The translations under genes and the position numbers were made by a program. DNA of 62,086 nucleotides from Pseudomonadota bacterium (GTDB lineage Bacteria > Pseudomonadota > Alphaproteobacteria > SHVZ01). Within the stretch, counting starts at the first letter, position 1, and every line of letters starts with the position of its first letter. The notes under the pieces are model-generated. The model was given only the letters and a program-made list of their open reading frames with translations, did no database searches and had not been told where the DNA came from. Below are positions 9,846-62,086 of this stretch, in pieces. The stretch is taken from the NCBI GenBank assembly GCA_016195085.1, contig JACQAG010000013.1, positions 1 through 62,086 of the forward strand, given 5' to 3'.

Positions 9846-10242
9846 CGTCATGGCCGGGCTTGACCCGGCCATCCACGTCGTGTCTTGCGATCGCGATGTT
9901 GCTCGCCGAGACTTCGTCCGTGAAAGGCGGATGGGTCTACATCATCACCAACCGGCCAAACGGGACGCTCTCTGTGGGTGTCACCAGTGATTTGGCTCGC
10001 CGTGCCTGGGAACATCGGGAAGGCGTGGCAGACGGCTTCAGCAAGCGGTGTGGCCTCAAGCGACTCGTCTATGTCGAACGCCACGACGATATCGGGGTTG
10101 CCATCCAACGAGAGAAGACCATGAAACATTGGCCTCGCGCATGGAAGGTCCGGCTGATCCTGGCCGAAAATCCCCGATGGGACGACCTATACGATCGGCT
10201 TGCGTCATGACGTGGATGGCCGGGACAAGCCCGGCCATGACG
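9846..10242. mobile_element. Hairpin-bounded GIY-YIG nuclease element (family F2, putative autonomous copy)
   Basis: A 397-bp unit. The left end (9846-9879) and right end (10209-10242) are 34-nt inverted repeats with a single mismatch, and each end is itself a hairpin (arms ATGGCCGGG/CCCGGCCAT around a short centre). The only gene between them is the GIY-YIG nuclease, whose TGA overlaps the first bases of the right hairpin. The same paired-hairpin unit without a gene occurs at 31546-31636 and 37360-37493, where only about 20-25 nt separate the hairpins. No target-site duplication is obvious. That this is a mobile unit is inference. Confidence 0.6.
9920..10210 (+). CDS. Small GIY-YIG family nuclease inside palindromic repeats
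   Basis: 96 aa from the GTG at 9920 (MKGGWVYIITNRPNG); longer starts at 9860/9896 would run through the left hairpin and are not family-like. This is a stand-alone GIY-YIG domain of the YhbQ/UPF0213-like group. It contains GGWVYIITN (first motif, Tyr7), DLARRAWEHR with the catalytic Arg region, LKRLVYVERHDD, and QREKTMKHWPRAWK with the catalytic Glu. Oddity: the second motif reads GTLSVGVTSD, so the tyrosine of YIG is serine here; activity may be reduced or lost. It has no additional DNA-binding domain. The immediate context is only the flanking inverted repeats, not an operon. Confidence 0.85.
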   Translation: MKGGWVYIITNRPNGTLSVGVTSDLARRAWEHREGVADGFSKRCGLKRLVYVERHDDIGVAIQREKTMKHWPRAWKVRLILAENPRWDDLYDRLAS

Positions 10243-31545: not shown

Positions 31546-31636
31546 ATCGTCATACGCGGGCTTGACCCGCGTATCCATCCTCGAGCGGCAAATCCGAAGT
31601 ACGATGGACCCGCGGATCAAGTCCGCGGGTGACGAT
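31546..31636. repeat. Paired-hairpin repeat, family F2 (short, gene-less copy)
   Basis: Two hairpins in opposite orientation: left arms ACGCGGG/CCCGCGT around CTTGA, right arms CCCGCGGA/TCCGCGGG around TCAAG, with 23 nt between. The outer ends match (ATCGTCA ... TGACGAT). Stem bases differ from the GIY-YIG copy but changes are compensated on both sides, so the fold is conserved. It lies in the 3' gap of the converging nudC and pheA genes. Confidence 0.88.
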
Positions 31637-37359: not shown

Positions 37360-37493
37360 CGTCATGGCCGGGCTTGACGGGGGTGGACTTTGGGAGGGGT
37401 GAGGATCACCCCTCCCCGACCCTCCCCGGCCATCCACGTGGCGCCGCCGCACGATGGAAGACGTGGATGCGCGGGTCAAGCCCGCGCATGACG
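37360..37493. repeat. Paired-hairpin repeat, family F2, with a nested insertion
   Basis: Left hairpin starts CGTCATGGCCGGGCTTGAC at 37360, but its right arm (CCGGCCATCCACGT) resumes only at about 37427 because a ~50-bp palindrome is inserted at the centre. The right hairpin (37461-37493) has arms ATGCGCGGG/CCCGCGCAT. Spacer of ~20 nt. It lies inside the sugar-ABC operon between the binding protein and first permease. Confidence 0.85.
37378..37426. mobile_element. Miniature nested palindrome, family F6 copy 1
   Basis: A ~50-bp insert with core arms GGGAGGGGTGA (37392-37402) and TCACCCCTCCC (37406-37416) around GGA, flanked by GGGTGGACTTT and CGACCCTCCCC. It interrupts the centre of the F2 hairpin. 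Exact ends are ambiguous because of G/C runs. A near-identical copy is at about 57420-57470. Confidence 0.7.
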
Positions 37494-61901: not shown

Positions 61902-61923
61902 CGTCATGGCCGGGCTCGTCCCA
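61902..61923. repeat. Half of a family F2 hairpin, interrupted
   Basis: CGTCATGGCCGGGCTCGTCC fits the start of the F2 hairpin but the complementary arm (GGCCATCCACG) is missing; the sequence departs right after the centre. The following DNA has different composition and looks like an IS end. Confidence 0.65.
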
Positions 61924-62086
61924 CGGCTGTCCGGTTTAGTTTTTGTGGCTCATCAGGGAATCGAGTGGGCGAATTGAGGGGTTGAAGGCGACCCGAAGCC
62001 ACGTGGATATTGGGTTTTTGGGGTGTCGCCAGGTGCTGGGGTTTGGCATGCTGGCGGCATGGGCAGATCAGCGAAGCCGGCGCGGC
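61924..62086 (+). mobile_element. Probable left end of an insertion sequence, truncated by the window
   Basis: After the broken F2 hairpin the sequence becomes T-rich (GGTTTAGTTTTTGTGGC) and contains a possible transposase start at 62059 (ATG GGC AGA TCA..., MGRSAKPAR) before the edge. No family could be assigned. Supporting points are the break in a known repeat and the composition shift; only 163 bp are visible. Confidence 0.4.

Follow-up and report, generated by a model that had tools for sequence, protein, structure and literature searches.

The small GIY-YIG nucleases described here are very likely the missing partner of the CGTC REPs, a family for which the question of what moves it had been left open, and the nuclease and its cognate palindrome probably travel as one selfish, REPtron-like unit in which the enzyme cuts its own REP as single-stranded DNA. 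The reading of gene and palindrome as one unit is based on their association across genomes, on the matching of REPs between flanks and along nuclease lineages, on purifying selection on the gene, on the gain and loss of gene and REPs as a block, and on homology between units that in several lineages ends at the REP edge. The CGTC-tagged REPs were reported as a super-family without a dedicated transposase; they are described as having a CGTC head, an AT-starting stem of 8-9 bp, a loop of 4-5 nt and a CCA tail, as occurring mostly in dimers with short spacers, and as being found mainly in alphaproteobacteria, with dRS3 included among them (Di Nocera, De Gregorio and Rocco 2013, PMC3733652). What makes these REPs, a question left unanswered by the 2013 survey, becomes directly testable through a cognate nuclease partner, and each enzyme gene carries its predicted target on both sides.

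The nuclease gene and its flanking hairpins

The window, which is the whole stretch of 62,086 nucleotides that was analysed, contains a GIY-YIG nuclease gene on the + strand between a left CGTC-tagged REP hairpin, CGTCATGGCCGGGCTTGACCCGGCCATCCA (9846-9875, + strand; 9-bp stem, 5-nt loop), and a right one, CGTCATGGCCGGGCTTGTCCCGGCCATCCA (10213-10242, - strand), both of one family and with their heads outward. An earlier note on this DNA had placed a GIY-YIG gene between paired hairpins whose ends form a near-perfect inverted repeat of 34 bp, and both descriptions hold: the gene product matches PF01541 with 35.6 bits (cut-off 22.6; E = 1.2e-8), an assignment that the alignment and an AlphaFold model share, and the arms at 9846-9879 and 10209-10242 are identical at 33 of 34 positions, with one mismatch. 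The overlap of the stop codon (TGA, 10208-10210) with the right arm is likewise as it had been described. The gene extends over 9920-10210 if it begins at the GTG codon at 9920, which aligns with the start methionine in 68 of 83 homologues, or over 9896-10210 if it begins at the ATG codon at 9896, which is also possible. No target duplication is evident at the window unit, and the permease gene next to the unit was not found in the six genomes of the family. By analogy, we assign the element to the Ssn type of system, discussed below, in which a nuclease is combined with its cognate REP.

The strict hairpin scan finds four matches in the window, where shuffled windows give none, and the source genome holds 76 REP units at two or fewer mismatches, compared to none for a reversed control pattern. 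These hairpins show the CGTC head, the AT-starting stem (here of 9 bp), the 5-nt loop and the CCA tail of the CGTC REPs, they are present in many copies, and many of them form head-outward dimers with short spacers of 16 or 26-27 nt (16-27 nt overall). One dimer, which lacks a nuclease, consists of a left REP at 31548-31577 (+ strand) and a right REP with a different stem, CGTCACCCGCGGACTTGATCCGCGGGTCCA, at 31605-31634 (- strand), while a second consists of a left REP at 37360-37436 (+ strand), into which 47 bp (37379-37425) are inserted, and a right REP at 37464-37493 (- strand). The insert is itself partly palindromic. The existence of such short copies had been claimed correctly, but their hairpins are separated by 27 nt (31578-31604 and 37437-37463) rather than by the roughly 20 nt that had been given. 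The further claim that the gene stands in place of the dimer spacer is borne out, with the gene occupying the position of the 27-nt spacer in the longer dimer class. This arrangement differs from that in the 2013 survey, which reports no associated enzyme, whereas here a GIY-YIG gene replaces the spacer and the pairing recurs with several types of CGTC REP.

The protein is small, with a single GIY-YIG domain of about 96 amino acids, and its AlphaFold model is a confident GIY-YIG fold (pLDDT 91.9). The nearest solved structure, both by sequence profile (E = 6e-10) and by fold, is 1zg2 of the UPF0213 family, and Slx1 is the other near neighbour. Identity to these UPF0213/YhbQ-like proteins is about 25%, and we know of no link between them and palindromes. 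All 57 aligned homologues match PF01541, and four residues of the family active site (Y7, R28, E65 and N84) are invariant while a fifth, Y18, is conserved in more than 90%. The window copy retains the four invariant residues, but the codon for the YIG tyrosine (9971-9973, + strand), which specifies Tyr in 81 of 83 homologues, is here TCT and specifies Ser, a substitution explicable by a single base change within the codon, so that the active-site set is incomplete. Judged from its sequence, the window protein belongs to the GIY-YIG family by descent and its activity is doubtful; by comparison with other GIY-YIG enzymes, Y18S has probably impaired it, although the serine is possibly an assembly error or a strain variant. 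Given this substitution, the copy is probably not the working autonomous form that the earlier note had taken it to be. Other origins and roles were considered for the gene and rejected: no homologue occurs among 50,697 phage records, PADLOC returns no match to a defence system, and matches to homing endonucleases are all below threshold.

Pairing and cognate matching across genomes

Since homologues of the nuclease were retrieved by protein similarity alone, their flanks were not selected, and the frequency of REPs beside them may be compared directly with that beside control ORFs taken from the same loci. The proposal that small GIY-YIG genes would be enriched beside such hairpins in other genomes is confirmed by this comparison: 45 of the 78 testable nuclease genes (those with enough flanking sequence) have a REP no more than 100 bp away on each side, compared to only 1 of 359 control ORFs (Fisher p = 9e-39). 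At least one side is flanked within this distance in 66 of the 78, and REP density is 3.22 per kb near the nuclease gene and 0.093 per kb elsewhere. The gene occurs in two recurrent layouts. In one, exemplified by the window, it has a single REP on each side with its head facing outward, and in the other it has a dimer on each side (dimer-gene-dimer). In one locus (L010, 6001-6297 and 6632-6919) the whole REP-nuclease unit is tandemly duplicated.

Distant homologues in alphaproteobacterial genomes (44-60% identity) are often REP-flanked as well, with other stem and loop sequences, and pairing with other stems extends to Sinorhizobium, Sphingobium and many alphaproteobacterial families. Beyond the alphaproteobacteria, a homologue in Neisseria gonorrhoeae with 46% identity to the window protein is flanked by dRS3 arrays, one in Aeromonas has one REP per side, and in Photobacterium a REP array starts about 180 bp downstream. 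Related-looking flanks in Planktothrix and Spirosoma, which the scanner does not call, were left out of the count, and 34 of 169 homologues have no detectable flanking REP.

The dRS3-flanked Neisseria homologue fits the description of the Ssn nucleases. The Ssn proteins (Chenal et al. 2025, Nature Communications) reportedly belong to the GIY-YIG enzymes and cleave single-stranded DNA at a many-copy Neisseria repeat (NTS), and many Ssn homologues reportedly have sequences of their own. This work probably makes outdated the statement in the earlier note that no GIY-YIG palindrome family had been described. The window element resembles Ssn in combining a small single-domain GIY-YIG protein with a many-copy cognate repeat in the same genome; it differs in that the window copy lacks the YIG tyrosine and in that cognate cutting and its position are here predictions from sequence.

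Each nuclease appears to be matched to its own REP type. A tagged hairpin is present on each flank at 87 loci, and in 51% of these the two flanks have an identical 9-nt stem arm, compared to 8% when partners are shuffled. Nuclease identity is correlated with REP similarity (Mantel r = 0.56, uncorrected for host taxonomy; the maximum of 1000 permutations is 0.25), and shared host ancestry contributes to this correlation. It is probably not the whole cause, because among the ten nuclease paralogues of genome G110, whose stems are mostly different where tagged hairpins were found, several have clearly different hairpins. Values of dN/dS among nuclease copies, including copies at different sites, are 0.02-0.19, which indicates that the gene is under strong purifying selection.

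Movement of the unit

In genome G121, which has three copies, the units are absent from comparable orthologous sites in sister species. At one of these sites (L167), the flanks abut in G203, and the missing 424 bp correspond to the gene and both REPs. At another (L168), neither dimer nor nuclease gene is present in G272, and a toxin-antitoxin-like pair takes the place of the unit in G203 and G293. As these sequence comparisons indicate, nuclease and REPs are gained or lost as one block in sister genomes, and the earlier note's suggestion that empty sites be compared is answered in favour of joint gain or loss. Because three relatives lack the L168 unit, its presence is explained more simply by a gain in G121. 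The empty sites in G203 and G272, compared with G121, show no clear target duplication. This single intergenic site thus holds a REP dimer with nuclease, a toxin-antitoxin-like pair or nothing, depending on which of the four genomes is considered.

Where similar nuclease genes occupy unrelated sites outside Magnetospirillum, homology stops at the REP edge, and similarity just beyond the REP is 0.33-0.65 compared to the 0.49 expected, which is about background. Outer inverted repeats beyond the REPs exceed the 99% null in just 2 of 54 loci; outer terminal repeats are thereby ruled out as a general feature, and the terminal inverted repeats (TIRs) found in Magnetospirillum are to be regarded as lineage-specific.

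REP number also varies with the presence of the nuclease, as the earlier note had anticipated. Across 289 alphaproteobacterial genomes, a nuclease at E of 1e-12 or below occurs in 30 of the 46 with the strict REP pattern and in 62 of the 243 without it (p = 3.6e-7), and the mean REP count is 12.7 with close nuclease homologues and 1.5 without. In six REP-rich genomes (G083, G203, G229, G235, G247 and G272, with 17-62 REPs) not even a profile search finds a homologue, so the enzyme is unnecessary for REP persistence; draft assemblies could hide a REP-flanked nuclease gene in these six.

If the GIY-YIG enzyme were the transposase of the CGTC REPs, excising and inserting REP dimers by the logic of the RAYTs with another nuclease, as in the model of the earlier note, then unit ends that coincide with REP heads, the gain and loss of units in sister species, and the higher REP counts that accompany close homologues would all be expected. 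GIY-YIG enzymes, however, are hydrolytic nucleases for which, to our knowledge, no strand-transfer step is known, and REPs are abundant in genomes without the nuclease, neither excision of a REP nor a new insertion is seen, and clear target duplications are lacking at the window and G121 sites, all of which make a transposase unlikely.

In Magnetospirillum the unit lies within a larger element. The TIR elements there (L008, L011, L012, L014 and L270) are 400-500 bp long, and in the first four the unit lies inside an element of about 500 bp that is bounded by 25-bp terminal repeats, AGAGCCGTTGGGACTAAGTGTGTTT, and by direct duplications of 10-11 bp (CCCTGCCAYCG, CTCGCGGGAA, CCCTTTGGGG and GGGTGACCTG) which adjoin the outer TIRs and not the REPs. 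Each of these four insertions lies in the apparent loop of an intrinsic-terminator-like hairpin. L270, likewise in a terminator-like hairpin, is a version of this TIR element that has only one REP and lacks the nuclease, and no target duplication is seen there. The REP-nuclease-REP block may have entered a TIR element that already carried a REP. In L014 and L269 the block faces the opposite way with respect to the terminal repeats, an orientation that might instead be due to inversion between the REPs. No known transposase is found inside the Magnetospirillum TIR elements, and a transposase acting in trans may be what moves them. The claim that the nuclease drives palindrome movement is not supported in view of the REP-rich genomes that lack a homologue and of this unit that moves inside another element; movement of REPs by the nuclease itself is hypothetical.

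That the REP-nuclease-REP unit is everywhere the passive cargo of TIR elements or of terminator-targeting insertions, with the enzyme serving an unrelated role, is what these copies, with their 10-11-bp direct repeats and terminator-like hairpins, would suggest; the near-absence of outer inverted repeats elsewhere and the cognate matching of stem and nuclease, which is unexpected for mere cargo, make it quite improbable. It is very improbable that the flanking hairpins are regulatory parts only (a terminator, an mRNA stabiliser or an autoregulatory site) under nuclease control: the stop codon does overlap the right hairpin, and REPs sit mostly downstream of genes (PMC3733652), but the genome has 76 of these hairpins, almost all of them away from the nuclease gene, and 45 of the 78 loci have them on each side of the gene. 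Chance juxtaposition, for which the commonness of REPs in the source genome might speak, has a negligible probability, being refuted by the comparison with control ORFs and by the recurrence of the pairing in many lineages.

A probable selfish nuclease unit and its dispersed target

The favoured reading is thus that nuclease and cognate REP form one selfish unit. By analogy, recognition and cutting of the enzyme's own REP probably take place in single-stranded DNA. Most likely it would bind the REP as a hairpin in DNA exposed as a single strand at a replication fork or in incoming or repair DNA, and its cut would fall at the unpaired CGTC tag or close to it. If the break were then repaired from a REP-bearing copy, the pair could persist and spread; alternatively, REP-nuclease-REP units might spread by inserting where a REP dimer already exists. 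The many short dimers would be dispersed cognate sites of the nuclease. We infer the binding of single-stranded DNA, the cut, its position and the spread driven by cutting, the single-strand step by analogy with Ssn.

The unit resembles the RAYT/REP and REPIN systems (REPtrons), in which the gene is also flanked by its presumed target palindrome, dimers are also dispersed and paralogues each have their own REP type. The RAYTs, however, are HUH tyrosine transposases that act on GTAG REPs, while the enzyme here has the unrelated, metal-dependent GIY-YIG nuclease fold. A broader reading, in which the entire CGTC REP super-family has GIY-YIG nucleases as its dedicated enzymes and owes its spread to copying or insertion that their cuts provoke at REP sites, is offered tentatively, as an extension towards which we do not lean; if true, it would describe a REPtron in which a hydrolytic nuclease takes the place of the HUH transposase. 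The pairing would join the CGTC REPs, the Neisseria dRS3 repeats and the GIY-YIG single-strand nucleases, between which no connection was found in the accessible literature, and what is possibly new is the link to the CGTC REPs as a super-family, the behaviour as a unit and the TIR-borne copies.

REPs also serve as sites for other elements in the window's genome. A REP fragment at 61902-61921 (+ strand) is disrupted by the end of an insertion element, for which no plasmid match was found. This element, with the end CCCACGGCTGTCCGGTTTAG, is inserted into REP hairpins at their loop side (GGTCAAG^), in the window at 61902-62086 and also at the contig ends L205-L207 and L242-L245, and the window contig itself terminates within a copy of it. 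In L240 and L241 this spot in the REP (GGTCAAG^) is occupied by a second element end, ATCCTATGAGGGTG.
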